Assembly: GCA_016873435.1 (NCBI GenBank)
Contig: VGXF01000011.1
Location: 1-57,312 of the forward strand
DNA length: 57,312 nt
Source of the DNA: Nitrospira sp.
GTDB taxonomy: Bacteria; Nitrospirota; Nitrospiria; Nitrospirales; Nitrospiraceae
Direction of reading: 5' to 3'
The notes under the pieces are model-generated. The model worked only from the letters and a program-made list of their open reading frames with translations, did not search any database and was not told the DNA's origin. Both the position numbers and the translations under genes were made by a program. Positions 23,290 through 29,619 of this stretch are shown here, in pieces; position 1 is the first letter of the stretch; each line of letters begins with the position of its first letter.

Positions 23290-23318
23290 TTGACGGACTT
23301 GGGATATTCCCGTATGAT
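23290..23318 (+). promoter_or_regulatory. Sigma-70-type promoter of the export cluster
   Basis: TTGACG (23290-23295), a 17-base spacer and TATGAT (23313-23318), 45 bases before the adaptor-protein ATG. Each box differs from the consensus by one base. Confidence 0.65.
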
Positions 23319-23362
23319 AAAAAGAAATAGGGTTGCGTGGAGACAGGGGCACAGGAACTACC

Positions 23363-24805
23363 ATGCCGTTCTTCATCGAACGATTTGCCGAAACCCTCAA
23401 AGGCAGCAGCGCGGTCGAGTCAACCGGCTTGGAGCCGCTGCTGACCATTGACGATCTGGCGACATCGCGGAAATTGCAGGCTTGGGAGATGGCGCAGATT
23501 CCCGAGTATCTGCGATCCTGGTCCCGCAAGGCCATCCGCATTCTCAGCATCTTTTTCCTCGCCCTCGCGTTCGCGCCTTGGACCCAGACCGTCACGGCCA
23601 GAGGACAACTCTCCGCCTACTCGCCCTACGAGCGTCCGCAGGACATCGAGGCCCAGATCACCGGCCGCATCAAGAAATGGCACGTCCTCGAAGGCGTGCG
23701 CGTCAAGCAGGGCGAGCTGATTCTCGAGTTGGCCGACATCGATCCGAATTTCATGGCGCCGGAACTGCTGGCGCTCATGGAGCAGCAGAAGGTCGCGCTG
23801 GAAACCAAACGCAAGGCGGCGATCGACCGCGCGGCGCAACTCGAAAAACGCATCACCGAAATGGAAAACCTCGTCAAAGCGGCCGTCCCCTCCGCCGAAG
23901 CGCGTGTCGTGGAGGCGGAGAACAAGGTCCGCGCCGCCGAGCAGCGTATCGTCGCCGCCAAGATCGCCTACGACACGGCCGAATTGAACGTGGACCGGCA
24001 CCGACAACTGGTCACGCGGGGGCTGGTGTCCCAACGTGAACTGGAAGTCACGATTCAGGCGGCGATCGCCAGCAAGGCGGAACTCAAGGCCGCCGAAGCG
24101 CAACTCAAGGAAGCGCAGCAGCACATGAAGGCATTGAGCTTCGGCCGCGACCAGATCAGTGCGGAGGTGCTGCAGCAACTGCTGAACGCGGAGGGGCAGC
24201 GCGCCGGCGCCCTCGCCGACGCCAGCCACGCGGCCGACGAACTGGCGCGGGTGAGCCTGAACCTGTCCAATGCGACCCAGCGTCGCCTCTATAGCCGCAT
24301 CACAGCGCCGACCGACGGCACCGTGGTGAAGATGGCGGAGGTCGGTCCGGGCGAAACGATCCGGCAGGGCGACAAGCTGGTCAAGATCTCTCCGATCAGC
24401 TCGGACAAGGCGGTGGAAATGACGGCGGAAGGCCTCGACGCCCCGCTGCTCAACCCCGGCCGAAAAGTCCGCCTGCTCTTTTACGGCATTCCGGCCATTC
24501 CGCTCCCCGCCTGGCCCGAACTGATGGCTGGCACGTTCGGCGGCATCATCAAGGTGGTGGATCAGGTGGACGACGGCAAGGGTAATTTCCGGTTCTGGGT
24601 CGTGCCGGACCCGGACGACCGCCCCTGGCCGGACCAATCCCACGTCCGGCAGGGCACCAAGGTTATGGGCTGGGTGCTCCTAAACCGCGTGCCGCTCTGG
24701 TACGAGCTGTGGCGCCGGTTCAACCTGTTCCCGCCGGACTATCAGGAAGGACCTCCGTCTCTCATGGACACCCTGCTGCCCAAGGCGGGACGGGGCGCGA
24801 AATAG
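23363..24805 (+). CDS. HlyD-like membrane fusion (adaptor) protein
   Basis: Periplasmic adaptor of 480 residues. A cytoplasmic N-terminal part (about 1-58) is followed by one membrane helix around residues 60-77 (ILSIFFLALAFAPW). Next come a lipoyl-like half (TGRIKKWHVLEGVRVKQGELI), a long alpha-helical hairpin of about 180 residues rich in A, E, K and Q, and the second lipoyl half (YSRITAPTDGTVVKM). The C-terminal 60 residues (LNRVPLWYELWRRF) are an unusual extension. AGGA lies seven bases before the ATG at 23363. With the TolC-like and ABC genes downstream it should bridge inner and outer membranes in an export machine. Confidence 0.88.
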   Translation: MPFFIERFAETLKGSSAVESTGLEPLLTIDDLATSRKLQAWEMAQIPEYLRSWSRKAIRILSIFFLALAFAPWTQTVTARGQLSAYSPYERPQDIEAQITGRIKKWHVLEGVRVKQGELILELADIDPNFMAPELLALMEQQKVALETKRKAAIDRAAQLEKRITEMENLVKAAVPSAEARVVEAENKVRAAEQRIVAAKIAYDTAELNVDRHRQLVTRGLVSQRELEVTIQAAIASKAELKAAEAQLKEAQQHMKALSFGRDQISAEVLQQLLNAEGQRAGALADASHAADELARVSLNLSNATQRRLYSRITAPTDGTVVKMAEVGPGETIRQGDKLVKISPISSDKAVEMTAEGLDAPLLNPGRKVRLLFYGIPAIPLPAWPELMAGTFGGIIKVVDQVDDGKGNFRFWVVPDPDDRPWPDQSHVRQGTKVMGWVLLNRVPLWYELWRRFNLFPPDYQEGPPSLMDTLLPKAGRGAK

Positions 24806-24910
24806 CCACGCACACGCCATCGCCACACCGTTGCCGAATCCGCCGATGGCGCACCGCCGTCGGATGCTCGTCATCATCGCAGTTGTCTGACGTCTAGAAT
24901 GGAGCCTGCC

Positions 24911-26422
24911 ATGACACGTCTCGTCCTCATCGTTTTTGTGCTGCTCGGTCTGCTGGTCGGCCAGGCGCCCGTGCCGGCCGGCGCGGCGCCCGACGAGCCC
25001 AAAACGGCCAGGCCGCTGCCGCCGATTCCGCTCAGCCTCAACGAAGTACTGGCCTGGGTGGACCGGTCCCATCCGCTGTTGAAGGGGGCCGGCACGGAAA
25101 AAATCGCCGCCCGCGGCAAGCTGCTCAAAGCCCTCGGTGCGTTCGAACCGGTCCTCGGCAACGCGCTGGAGGTCGAACGGTTCACGCCGTCCGCGCAGGC
25201 CCAGGCCGGCATCAGAAACACGCAGACGGCCGGGTTCAACGATACGTTTCTCGAAATGCTGCACCCCTCCGGCTTCAAGGGCCTCGCCGGTTTCCGTCAG
25301 GGGTTCGGCACCACGGCGATCACGGTTCCCGACTTGAGTCTCGGCAACGGCGGCCAGCTGTTGATGGGCGCCAGCATGCCCCTGCTGCGCGGATTCATGG
25401 TGAACCCCGAAAACGCCGAGCTGCAGCGTTCCGGATTGGCCGATCCACGCGCCGAAATCGAAATCGCGCAGACCCGCCAGGATCTGTTCCTGGCCGCGGC
25501 CGGACAATACTGGGACTGGGTGGCCGCGTGGAAATTGGTGGACGTGCAGCAACGGGCCCTCAAGGTGGCCGAGGACCGCTTCAAGCAGATCGAGGAACGC
25601 GCCAAGACGGGTCTTTCCGCCCCGCTGGACGCCGTCGAGGCGAACCAGGAAGTGCAGCGCCGGCGGGAAATCCTCATCGCCGCGACGCGCGGCGTTGAAC
25701 AGGAACAATATAAATTGTCGCTCTTCCTCTGGGAGAACGGCGCGCCGATGGCGCCGGCGGGCAGGCGCGTGCCGGACTTCCAGAAACCGGTCCCGCTCCC
25801 GATGCCTGAAGCCGTCAAGGCCGACAGGCTGGCCGCACGGGCGCGCCGGCCGGAAGTGCTGGCCGTGGGCGTCGAAGCCAAGATCAACAACATCGATCTT
25901 GAATTGGCGAAGAACAATCTGCTGCCCAGCCTGGATCTGACGGCACAGCCGGTCCGGCAGCCCCAGCAATACGTGCTCGGATTGGGCTACTCGGGAGAAG
26001 CGGTCCTGCGGATTCCGTTCCTGCAACGCAAGGCCCGCGGCGAGGTGCTCGAGGCGCAGGGCAAGGCCGACCGGCTGGTGCTGACCCAGTTGTTTCGCGA
26101 ACAACAAGTACTCGTGGACGTAGACAACGCGCTCTCCGCCGTGGAACGCGCCAAGCAGCGCATTGATGCCGCGCAGCAGTCGTTGCAACTGGCAAAAACG
26201 CTGGAGGAGGGCGAGCGGTTCCGGTTCGGCCTCGGCGCCACCAGCGTGCTGTTCGTGAATTTGCGTGAGCGGCTGGCGGTGGATTCTGAAAACCAGTATC
26301 TCCGCGCACTGGCCGATTACCAGAAGGCCCTGGCCCTGTATCAGTGGGCCATCGGCGCCTGGAGCCCGGTGAATGCCTCGGCTACCATGCCGGTCACGTA
26401 TCGGCCGATGTCGCAGCCCTAA
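24911..26422 (+). CDS. TolC-like outer-membrane channel protein
   Basis: Outer-membrane efflux protein of 503 residues with a signal peptide (LVLIVFVLLGLLVGQAPVPAGAA). Repeated long helices with heptad-like A, Q, E and L (for example around QRALKVAEDRFKQIEERAKTG and AKQRIDAAQQSLQLAKTLEEG) are the OEP/TolC pattern, with strand segments between. The ATG at 24911 has GGAG six bases before it and is preferred to the ATG at 24899. It is gene two of the export cluster; three subunits would form the channel that the adaptor contacts. Confidence 0.85.
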   Translation: MTRLVLIVFVLLGLLVGQAPVPAGAAPDEPKTARPLPPIPLSLNEVLAWVDRSHPLLKGAGTEKIAARGKLLKALGAFEPVLGNALEVERFTPSAQAQAGIRNTQTAGFNDTFLEMLHPSGFKGLAGFRQGFGTTAITVPDLSLGNGGQLLMGASMPLLRGFMVNPENAELQRSGLADPRAEIEIAQTRQDLFLAAAGQYWDWVAAWKLVDVQQRALKVAEDRFKQIEERAKTGLSAPLDAVEANQEVQRRREILIAATRGVEQEQYKLSLFLWENGAPMAPAGRRVPDFQKPVPLPMPEAVKADRLAARARRPEVLAVGVEAKINNIDLELAKNNLLPSLDLTAQPVRQPQQYVLGLGYSGEAVLRIPFLQRKARGEVLEAQGKADRLVLTQLFREQQVLVDVDNALSAVERAKQRIDAAQQSLQLAKTLEEGERFRFGLGATSVLFVNLRERLAVDSENQYLRALADYQKALALYQWAIGAWSPVNASATMPVTYRPMSQP

Positions 26423-26474
26423 CGGTCGCGCATGGAATTTTCTTGGTCGGTTTGCTAGGCTACGGGCCCGTCGG

Positions 26475-26497
26475 CGCCGTTTCACGCGGAAACGGCG
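26475..26497 (+). promoter_or_regulatory. Perfect hairpin before the ABC gene of the export cluster
   Basis: CGCCGTTTC and GAAACGGCG form a perfect 9-bp stem around a 5-base loop, 32 bases before the ATG at 26530 and after the TolC-like stop. With no T tract it may be an mRNA stability or translation-control element. Confidence 0.5.
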
Positions 26498-26529
26498 GCC
26501 GGGCGTTGCTCACCTAGGTGGAGAATTCG

Positions 26530-28206
26530 ATGGAATCATCGGACGCGCACACGCCGCTTACCGCCCGCGGGCTGTTTCAGTCGACGCTGTCCCGCGTGTG
26601 GTTTTATTACGGGATCGAGCGGAAATTTCTGGTCCTGCTCTTCACCTACGCCCTGGCCATCGGCATCTTCAACCTGATCGTGCCCCTGACGGTCCAGGAA
26701 CTGGTCAACACCTTCGCCTATGCCGTCCAGCCTCTCATGGCCTTGACGCTGGCAACGGTCATGGTCGTGACCCTCCTGTTCATCGGCATGTTCCGTGTCC
26801 GGCAGACCGACGCGTTGGAGAACCACGGGCAGCGCCTGTTCAGCCGCACGATGCTGGCGCTGGCGAAGGAACTGCCGTACCTCCGCGACACCAACCGCAT
26901 CTCGAAATCCGTGAACTACCTGCTGGAAGCCGAATATTTCGACCGGGCGTTGTACGCCTTTCTGATCGACTTCATGAACATGGTGGTGGGCGGATTCGTC
27001 GGCGTGGCGTTGTTGACCACCTATCACCCCTTCTTTCTCCTGTACAGCATGATCGTCATCGCCGGATTCACCGGCGTGCTGACGATCATGACGCGCGGGG
27101 GGCTGCGCGTCACGCTGGCCATGTCCGATCACAAATACGAGGTGCTCCACTGGTTCCAGGACCTGGCCCGGAACATTCTCCACCTCAGAAGTTCCGCGAG
27201 CCCGACGTTCCTCGCGCAGCGCGCGAACGAGCTGCTCGTCCCCTACCTACACGCCCGCAAGATGCGGACCAACATCCTCACCTACACGCAGTTCAAGTCG
27301 GCCGTCATCTGGCAGGCCGTCGTCCACAGCGGCATGATCGCCCTCGGCGGCTACCTGCTGTCCTCCGGCCAGATCACGCTCGGACAATTCGTCGCCTCGG
27401 AAGTCATCATCACGGGCATGGTCAACAATTCCGAAACGGTCGCCCGGCGGATGTATTCCGTGTTCTACGCGTTCACTGCGCTCCACAAACTGGGAGCCCT
27501 CTTCTCCACCCCGCGGGACACGCATTTCGAACAGGCGCATCTCAGCCTGCCGGACGTCGGGATCCACGGCATCCGGCTGACGTGCAAGGGCGTGGGCTTC
27601 GCCTACCCGAATTCGCCGCCGGTCTTCCGGGACTTCACCCTGGAGGTGGCGCCGGGAGAAAAGGTGGCCGTCATCGCCGCCAACAGCGTCGGGAAAACCA
27701 CGCTGGCCTGCGTGCTGGCCGGCTTGCACACGCCGACCAGTGGATTCATCCAGTACAACGGCGTGGACTTGCGCGACTTGGACATCCACGCCCTGAACAA
27801 CTGCCGCGGCCTGATTCTGGATTCGCAGCTCACCCTGTTGGACGGCACGCTGGAGGATAACATCGCCATGGGCCGCCCGGTGTCCTACGACGACATCAAA
27901 TGGGCGCTGCGATTCGTCGACATGGAGGACGAAGTGGAAGCCCTTCCGCTGGCGCTGCGCACGCCGACCCACGGAGGGGGCAAGGAATTCACGAGCAGCC
28001 AGATGCTGCGCCTGCTCGTCGCGCGCGCGATCGTGACGCGGCCTCAGTTGCTGATCCTCGACGGCACCCTGCACAACATGCTTCCCGTGCTTCGTGAAAC
28101 CATTTTGCGCCGTCTCTGCAGCAAGGAAGAGCCCTGGTCGGTGATCTTCGTCTCCAACGATCCGACGCTTTCGGCCCACGTGGACCGGCGGATCGTCATG
28201 GAGTGA
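26530..28206 (+). CDS. ABC exporter-like protein with degenerate ATPase domain
   Basis: 558 residues: a membrane domain of about six helices (residues ~25-310) followed by an ABC fold (~345-558). The ATPase motifs are strongly altered. Walker A reads AANSVGKTT (383-391), keeping GKT but losing two glycines. The signature LSGGQ is FTSSQ (487-491). Walker B is LLILD with glycine at 512 instead of the catalytic glutamate. The switch histidine is asparagine at 543. The Q-loop glutamine (LDSQLTLLDGT) remains. ATP might still bind, but normal hydrolysis is unlikely. The ATG at 26530 is preferred to GTG at 26518 because GGTGGAG precedes it. It sits with adaptor and TolC-like genes. Confidence 0.85.
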   Translation: MESSDAHTPLTARGLFQSTLSRVWFYYGIERKFLVLLFTYALAIGIFNLIVPLTVQELVNTFAYAVQPLMALTLATVMVVTLLFIGMFRVRQTDALENHGQRLFSRTMLALAKELPYLRDTNRISKSVNYLLEAEYFDRALYAFLIDFMNMVVGGFVGVALLTTYHPFFLLYSMIVIAGFTGVLTIMTRGGLRVTLAMSDHKYEVLHWFQDLARNILHLRSSASPTFLAQRANELLVPYLHARKMRTNILTYTQFKSAVIWQAVVHSGMIALGGYLLSSGQITLGQFVASEVIITGMVNNSETVARRMYSVFYAFTALHKLGALFSTPRDTHFEQAHLSLPDVGIHGIRLTCKGVGFAYPNSPPVFRDFTLEVAPGEKVAVIAANSVGKTTLACVLAGLHTPTSGFIQYNGVDLRDLDIHALNNCRGLILDSQLTLLDGTLEDNIAMGRPVSYDDIKWALRFVDMEDEVEALPLALRTPTHGGGKEFTSSQMLRLLVARAIVTRPQLLILDGTLHNMLPVLRETILRRLCSKEEPWSVIFVSNDPTLSAHVDRRIVME

Positions 28207-28304
28207 CCCATGGGCCTCCATTGCGCCAATCGCTTCTTCTCCGCGCCGCAATCTGGTATAGTCAACGCGAACATAATGGGAAGAGGGTCGTGGAAGCCAC
28301 ACGC

Positions 28305-29090
28305 ATGAAAGGGTTCCCCCGTCCATCCTGGAAACAGCTCGCGGTCAGCATCCTGATCGCGAGCCTGGGCCTGCTGAGCGGCCGCGCCCTCAGCCAGGTC
28401 AATCAGGACATCACGCTGATGTACACCGAGTACACGCTGGGCGCCACCGAGGTGGCCCATATCTCTGCGGACGTCATTCGCTACCGCGTCACTATCATCC
28501 GCTCCCTCGAAGCCCAGACACGGCAGGACTTCGAGCGAATCATAGCGCCTCTGGCCGAGCAGCGCGCCGCCATCCAGCATGCCGTGGACCGCTATGCCGC
28601 CGCGAGCCTGCGGGTCTCCCGCAGCGGCCGCAGCGAGGCCGACGATCTCCGTGCGGTCAAGGACAGCCTCGACGCTTATTTCCAGGCCGCCAGCAAAACC
28701 ATCAGTTTGATGACGCAGGCCTGGGTGGTGGGCACACCGAAGGAAGCGGCGGCGCTCCGGCGGCAGGCGGAACTGCACGCCGCCGACAACGCGGGTCCCA
28801 AGTTGGTCCAGATCAGTCTGGCGCTCGACCGGCTGGTCGACACCATCGCCGATGTTGCCAAGGATATGCGCAACGACGGCACCGCGGAGCTGCGCGCAAC
28901 CAGCAGCCTGCTGGTCTTCGGCAGCTTGTTCGTCGCGATAGTGAATTTGTTCAGCGGCCGCGCGGCCGCACCGTCGCCAGAGCCACGCCCGGCCGACATC
29001 CCCACCTTGGACGGCGACAACGGCCCTGCCAAGGTCCACCCGTCCCGACGTCAAGAAACCTACGCCGATCCGGCGCTCCGCCGCGGCTGA
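28305..29090 (+). CDS. Membrane-anchored helical-bundle protein of unknown function
   Basis: About 261 residues. An N-terminal hydrophobic helix (LAVSILIASLGLLSG) may be a signal or anchor. It is followed by a long mostly helical region with charged repeats (residues ~30-205), and a second hydrophobic helix around 206-222 (SSLLVFGSLFVAIVNLFSG). A proline-rich tail ends the protein. The two-helix layout with an extracytoplasmic helical bundle recalls four-helix-bundle sensory modules of chemoreceptors, but no signalling domain follows. It is the last gene of the export cluster on the same strand. The start is uncertain (GTG at 28290 or ATG at 28305). Confidence 0.65.
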   Translation: MKGFPRPSWKQLAVSILIASLGLLSGRALSQVNQDITLMYTEYTLGATEVAHISADVIRYRVTIIRSLEAQTRQDFERIIAPLAEQRAAIQHAVDRYAAASLRVSRSGRSEADDLRAVKDSLDAYFQAASKTISLMTQAWVVGTPKEAAALRRQAELHAADNAGPKLVQISLALDRLVDTIADVAKDMRNDGTAELRATSSLLVFGSLFVAIVNLFSGRAAAPSPEPRPADIPTLDGDNGPAKVHPSRRQETYADPALRRG

Positions 29091-29124: not shown

Positions 29125-29619
29125 TTACTGAGAACTCCGGCAGGACGGCTTGCCCGTTGGAAGCAGCGGCAGGCAGCCGTCTTTTTTGAGAGGCACCCGG
29201 AACGTCCCGACGGGTGTCTCGATGAGCAGCGAAAGCGCCAGCGTGTAGGCGGCGGCGCCGCGGCCCGTGAGCCGCGCCAGCGTGTTCTGCAGATCGGCCC
29301 AGACCAGTTCGACAGGGACCACCACGCGCGCGGTGCCCCGCGGGCGCAGCTCGACCCGCTCGTGGGATTGGCCTGAGACAAACGGCTGGCCTTCGAGCTG
29401 CACGGCGTACTCATAGCCGTCGATCGTGAGCTCGCCCTCGCCAGGATTCTTCAGGGCGACATCGAGGCGCAGGGTCATCCCGCGCAGATCGACTCCGGTG
29501 ACGACGACGGTCACCGATTGCACCTCCGGCTTCGTCGTCAGGCCTTCCACCGTCCGGCAACCGGATACCAGCGCCAGGGCGAGCAGCGCCGTGGTCGTGC
29601 AACGAACGAGTCGCCTCAT
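29125..29619 (-). CDS. LEA14/WHy-domain lipoprotein
   Basis: 164 residues with a lipoprotein signal peptide ending in the lipobox VSGC. The mature domain (QSVTVVVTGVDLRGMTLRLDVALKNPGEGELTIDGYEYAVQ in pattern) is an immunoglobulin-like WHy/LEA14 fold: alternating strands, a conserved N-P turn, and a VELVWADLQ stretch. The family is linked to desiccation and stress in plants and is common as bacterial lipoproteins, whose function is unknown. The ATG at 29619 overlaps the rluF stop (ATGA), so it is translationally coupled to rluF. Confidence 0.8.
   Translation of the reverse strand: MRRLVRCTTTALLALALVSGCRTVEGLTTKPEVQSVTVVVTGVDLRGMTLRLDVALKNPGEGELTIDGYEYAVQLEGQPFVSGQSHERVELRPRGTARVVVPVELVWADLQNTLARLTGRGAAAYTLALSLLIETPVGTFRVPLKKDGCLPLLPTGKPSCRSSQ

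Follow-up and report, generated by a model that had tools for sequence, protein, structure and literature searches.

A degenerate ABC exporter encoded with HlyD- and TolC-like proteins in Nitrospira as a putative member of a pseudo-ATPase exporter family

A four-gene cluster of Nitrospira encodes an ABC exporter-like protein that we strongly infer not to hydrolyse ATP, and our best reading is that it belongs to a family of pseudo-ATPase ABC exporters that is old and occurs widely. An intact Walker A motif, LSGGQ signature, catalytic glutamate or switch histidine was found in none of 139 Nitrospirota homologues. Whether wholly ATPase-dead ABC exporters of Nitrospirota, Bacteroidota and Alphaproteobacteria indeed form trans-envelope complexes with HlyD and TolC in which transport or sensing proceeds without hydrolysis of ATP is a proposition to which we give an even chance.

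The gene cluster and its products

The window, i.e. the whole stretch of 57,312 nucleotides that was analysed, is a single contig of a genome of 1.72 Mb (98.5% complete). It contains HlyD-like, TolC-like, ABC exporter-like and four-helix-bundle (4HB) genes as four intact open reading frames on one strand (23363-29090, +), the Pfam domains of which agree with the gene types assigned in the earlier note, and the observation on the cluster as a whole is confirmed. The note had also called the cluster promoter-led. A sigma-70-like match upstream of the cluster (TTGACG-17-TATGAT; 23290..23318, +) is real, with 10/12 matching positions, and its place would suit the start of a putative single transcription unit, whereas its promoter function is plausible but not shown, one match being found in the region and 0.7 being expected by chance. 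A terminator-like hairpin with a T run located 3' of the last gene (29166..29180, +) is weak, and the 8 terminators found by scanning the region are not beyond chance (5.0 ± 2.3 expected).

The first gene (23363..24805, +) encodes a HlyD-like periplasmic adaptor of 480 aa (Pfam HlyD_3, 3.4e-10), in which a single transmembrane helix is preceded by an N-terminal stretch of about 55 residues, and the second (24899..26422, +; start at 24899 or 24911) a TolC-like outer-membrane channel of 507 aa (Pfam OEP, 2.4e-32). These two proteins are the best conserved parts of the cluster in genomes of the same family, with identities of 69-80% for the adaptor and, in most relatives, 63-74% for the channel.

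The third gene (26530..28206, +) encodes the ABC exporter-like protein of 558 aa, comprising a transmembrane domain (TMD; about residues 15-335), which was not recognised by Pfam, and a nucleotide-binding domain (NBD; residues 345-558; Pfam ABC_tran, 1e-14). The expectation of an exporter fold is met by an AF2 model (pLDDT 81), whose predicted TMD and NBD superpose on solved exporters; the best Foldseek match was the HlyB/HlyD complex 8dck (TM 0.86; best matches 0.86-0.88). To read its motifs, we aligned the protein with ten canonical ABC exporters encoded in the same genome or in related ones. Walker A reads AANSVGKT (A383-A-N-S386-V-G-K389-T; 27676..27699, +) compared with GxxGxGK[ST], i.e. 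two of its three glycines are gone and GKT is retained, and the signature is FTSSQ for LSGGQ (residues 487-491; 27988..28002, +). Furthermore, Gly512 replaces the catalytic glutamate in Walker B (LLILDG for LLILDE; 28048..28065, +) and Asn543 replaces the switch histidine (28156..28158, +; VSNDP for IAHRL). All of these replacements are as previously described from the sequence. Two changes were absent from that description, namely a one-residue insertion in the Q-loop, which blurs its glutamine, and a D-loop reading TLHNM where canonical exporters have TSALD, with loss of SALD.

The last gene (28290..29090, +; start probably GTG at 28290 or ATG at 28305, not 28203) encodes a periplasmic 4HB protein of about 261-266 aa with two transmembrane helices. 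The receptor-like two-helix layout that had been ascribed to it is supported by its profile match (Pfam 4HB_MCP_1, 1.2e-11) and by an AF2 model (pLDDT 80), a long two-TM bundle for which chemoreceptor ligand-binding domains such as Vc1313 were the best Foldseek matches, albeit with an E-value of only 0.004 (TM score by target about 0.8). Like the 4HB domains of chemoreceptors (Vc1313, Tar), the protein is predicted to place a periplasmic four-helix bundle between two transmembrane helices; unlike chemoreceptors, it lacks a HAMP or cytoplasmic signalling domain, and its C-terminus comprises only about 40 low-confidence residues.

Conservation of the degenerate state in Nitrospirota

Motif columns were counted in 139 distinct Nitrospirota homologues, some columns being scored in 136 or 135 of them. 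The first Walker A glycine is absent from all 139 sequences, the column of the catalytic glutamate holds glycine in 134 and serine in two (n = 136, no glutamate), and that of the switch histidine holds asparagine in 122, threonine in 11 and isoleucine in two (n = 135, no histidine). Canonical motifs in homologues, which would have refuted the earlier note, are thus lacking, and its core inference that ATP is not hydrolysed normally gains support from a motif loss that is fixed among homologues, although it is drawn from sequence and without biochemistry. A joint loss of the glutamate, the histidine, LSGGQ and the P-loop glycines leaves no route for a normal ABC cycle (PMC7756269).

The P-loop lysine (K389) is retained in 130 of the 139 homologues, in most Nitrospira copies as Lys-Thr/Ser, and the Walker B aspartate in 97 of 136 (glutamate in 24, asparagine in 14). 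Both would fit a residual use of nucleotide, which counts against our best reading; the retention of K389 is only suggestive of a SUR-like nucleotide binding without hydrolysis. In the sister family, f3, this lysine is lost. From the motif loss in 139 homologues and the additional loss of the lysine in f3 we conclude that the degenerate state is old and graded and is not due to sequencing error.

As judged from substitution patterns, the degenerate NBD is under purifying selection. The median dN/dS of 54 independent close pairs was 0.077 for the NBD and 0.065 for the TMD, and the canonical control MsbA gave 0.062 and 0.067, respectively, in the same family of genomes (14 pairs). Identity to the ABC copy of the window was 0.59 for the NBD and 0.44 for the TMD. 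The low dN/dS of the NBD and its higher identity compared to the TMD argue that the dead domain is maintained and not decaying. A sequence error or a decaying pseudogene, which finds support only in the unusual motifs and in the long branch of the window's TMD, is excluded by the same losses in 138 other sequences, by open frames and by the dN/dS of the NBD; we attribute practically no likelihood to it.

Regarding the TMD of the window's copy (26572-27534), identity to relatives is 0.45-0.49 compared with 0.61-0.72 among the relatives, an excess divergence that is not seen for the NBD, HlyD and TolC of the same copy.

Distribution, relatives and solo paralogues

Of 120 genomes that belong to the family of the window and are at least 90% complete, 105 have the ABC family. 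Among 396 genomes sampled across the phylum, it was confined to this family and one sister family. Homologues in named records belong to Nitrospira, with Ca. N. defluvii and N. moscoviensis among them, from which we infer that the organism of the window is a Nitrospirota relative of Nitrospira. The gene order of the window recurs in relatives as HlyD-TolC-ABC(-ABC)-4HB at a fixed chromosomal locus, in many genomes flanked by purE-purK and a pseudouridine synthase-speB group, and this conserved neighbourhood argues for vertical descent of the cluster. Some genera carry two tandem ABC genes, both copies of which are degenerate. The 4HB gene, previously counted as a member of the cluster, is one in so far as this order recurs, but it is missing in f3 and at two loci of genus g6 (L067, L068), where the same chromosomal site is occupied by three TolC genes followed by ABC and HlyD. 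A LysR regulator is also present at the latter site. In one genome only, the ABC gene is separated from a fragment of a 4HB gene by an open reading frame for a 2401-residue RHS/Kelch-repeat protein (L051:1459-8661), which could possibly represent a substrate or a chance insertion. Nitrospira-like copies in an Acidimicrobiia and an Armatimonadetes bin (L079 and L087; 57% and 52%) are probably misbinned.

A single-protein query against genome contigs gave no match, and the best 80 of 535 matches in a profile search of genome contigs were all or nearly all from Nitrospira; the spread to other phyla is therefore known only from plasmid records. Searching these with the HlyD-like protein yielded only 20 records, all from Bacteroidota or sphingomonads, and the top matches of the ABC protein were from the same organisms. 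The Riemerella record L200 (NZ_CP081938.1) is labelled as a plasmid and carries murB, rsmI and a thymidine kinase gene beside the cluster; it is probably a piece of a chromosome.

The ABC proteins read from 15 plasmid records, 11 of them sphingomonad, are degenerate without exception, none having LSGGQ or the switch histidine; those of the 15 records that are annotated all show the gene order ABC-HlyD-TolC. The P-loop lysine is missing in all 11 sphingomonad proteins, and two proteins (L200, L202) have a glutamate in the Walker B glutamate column but miss the aspartate. Constraint on the sphingomonad NBD is weaker with selection still present (dN/dS 0.10-0.28). In a tree inferred from TMD columns only, in which the catalytic motifs cannot drive the grouping, 32 degenerate proteins split from 13 canonical exporters (SH-aLRT 100) and each phylum group formed one clade. 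The tree was made quickly (LG+G4) and rooted on the canonical exporters, of which it includes few, and its branches are long; a single loss of the catalytic motifs across the family is the simplest reading of it, not proof.

These relatives also bear on the idea that the NBD still hydrolyses ATP at an alternative active site formed by family-specific residues, e.g. H515 in the old D-loop and D544 beside the old switch histidine. Both are invariant in the Nitrospirota homologues (135/135), which are also those that mostly keep K389. However, the loss of LSGGQ and the Walker A glycines removes the nucleotide-sandwich contacts, f3 has H515 and D544 without the P-loop lysine, and the Bacteroidota and sphingomonad relatives lack the equivalents of both residues, so that we regard hydrolysis by this route as improbable.

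Solo pseudo-ABC paralogues without HlyD/TolC occur elsewhere in Nitrospira genomes, from which we conclude that this type of ABC protein serves further functions as well. At 12 loci (L044, L048, L049, L053, L088, L104, L106, L110, L113, L117, L119, L123) the paralogue is followed by an NtrC-type sigma-54 regulator and a PAS-HisKA kinase, the two transmembrane helices of which are only about 33 residues apart. At 15 loci (L065, L066, L077, L129, L133, L134, L137, L138, L140, L144, L147, L148, L151-L153) it adjoins a GT2 glycosyltransferase and/or a PMT/ArnT-like protein. A few loci are counted twice in each set.

Possible roles and comparison with known systems

We propose, with a confidence that does not go beyond the evenly balanced, that the cluster encodes an envelope-spanning complex similar to type I secretion systems, with a pseudo-ATPase ABC exporter as docking, gating or sensing module. 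As in type I secretion (HlyB-HlyD-TolC), the three component types are encoded together, and the model of the ABC protein is closest in fold to HlyD-bound HlyB. The cluster differs from type I secretion in that its ABC protein has lost the catalytic motifs and, by sequence, does not qualify as a competent ATPase, lacks a C39-like N-terminal domain and is accompanied by the extra 4HB protein. Scores against the NCBIfam models of the HlyD and HlyB families were far below the cutoffs (TIGR01843, 68/209 bits; TIGR01846, 101/726 bits), and no conserved extra substrate-like gene was found beside the cluster in the compared neighbourhoods.

According to the proposed mechanism, the ABC-like protein would keep the exporter fold and dock to the HlyD-like adaptor and the TolC-like channel, which is inferred from gene order and analogy. 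It would run no hydrolytic transport cycle and would most likely act as a gate or sensor, the state of which may be set by a ligand or a non-hydrolysed nucleotide, and the 4HB protein may provide a periplasmic sensing or accessory surface. Conservation of the NBD means that it must have some function, which could lie in holding the dimer together, in passing on a state or in ligand binding. The gating or sensing role and the assembly with HlyD/TolC are inferred, and export itself is not shown. What counts against this reading is that a gate without an energy source would allow export only down a gradient.

Catalytic residues are also lost from a conserved NBD in exporters of which one site is degenerate (TM287/288, TmrAB, TAP, CFTR, SUR), for which a structural or sensing role of that site has been proposed (PMC7756269). 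These exporters keep one competent site each, in which the family described here differs: the genome of the window has no second ABC protein of the family, and the tandem pairs of other genomes are dead in both copies, so that no competent site would remain. A heterodimer with a canonical second copy is excluded for the tandem arrangement, as the partners are also degenerate. The suggestion of a partner ATPase is weakened in the same way, none being conserved in the cluster.

A real pump might still draw on proton-motive force, or on an ATPase that is encoded elsewhere and attaches to the pseudo-ABC protein or the adaptor. The high conservation of HlyD and TolC compared with the rest of the cluster speaks for this, as does the fact that in other bacteria SecA_DEAD proteins occur with HlyD-type proteins where an ABC transporter is missing (Kamneva et al. 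2015, PMC4452313). Those clusters resemble the one of Nitrospira in that their HlyD-type proteins are not accompanied by a canonical ABC motor and differ from it in that the latter has an ABC-like protein and neither SecA_DEAD nor M50. We reject a SecA-type replacement motor, because nothing of this kind recurs beside the cluster. With no conserved ATPase or ion-coupled transporter next to the cluster and no second ABC of the family in the genome of the window, we consider such a pump unlikely, if still worth keeping in mind.

Alternatively, the complex could serve signalling and not transport, the pseudo-ABC protein sensing envelope stress or lipid state and passing this on to a regulator in a Bce-like manner and HlyD/TolC being structural. 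The solo paralogues beside kinases or glycosyltransferases and the 4HB partner point in this direction, and as in Bce modules (BceAB-BceRS), the kinase-linked paralogues pair an ABC protein with a histidine kinase that has a short extracytoplasmic loop. BceAB has a different type of ABC fold and an ATPase subunit that is competent, whereas the paralogue is exporter-type and degenerate. Moreover, no kinase or response regulator adjoins the cluster of the window, which accordingly does not qualify as a Bce-type module, and if the complex were not a conduit, the conservation of the TolC channel would be difficult to account for. We therefore rate pure signalling as unlikely. For the gating or sensing module that we prefer, the kinase- and glycosyltransferase-linked paralogues together with the 4HB partner lead us, as an inference, to lean towards envelope sensing.

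Degeneracy of one site is a familiar feature of ABC exporters; a conserved exporter family without any competent site would be the new aspect. Our literature search for inactive or pseudo-ATPase ABC exporters, whose scope excluded most subscription journals, retrieved no family in which all sites are dead. If confirmed, the finding would separate the job of the ABC scaffold, i.e. docking, gating or sensing, from that of ATP, and would imply that tripartite conduits can exist without a motor. Since sphingomonads carrying the cluster can be grown and manipulated, these predictions are testable. The cluster is kept by most Nitrospira, which are key nitrifiers with a little-known envelope biology.
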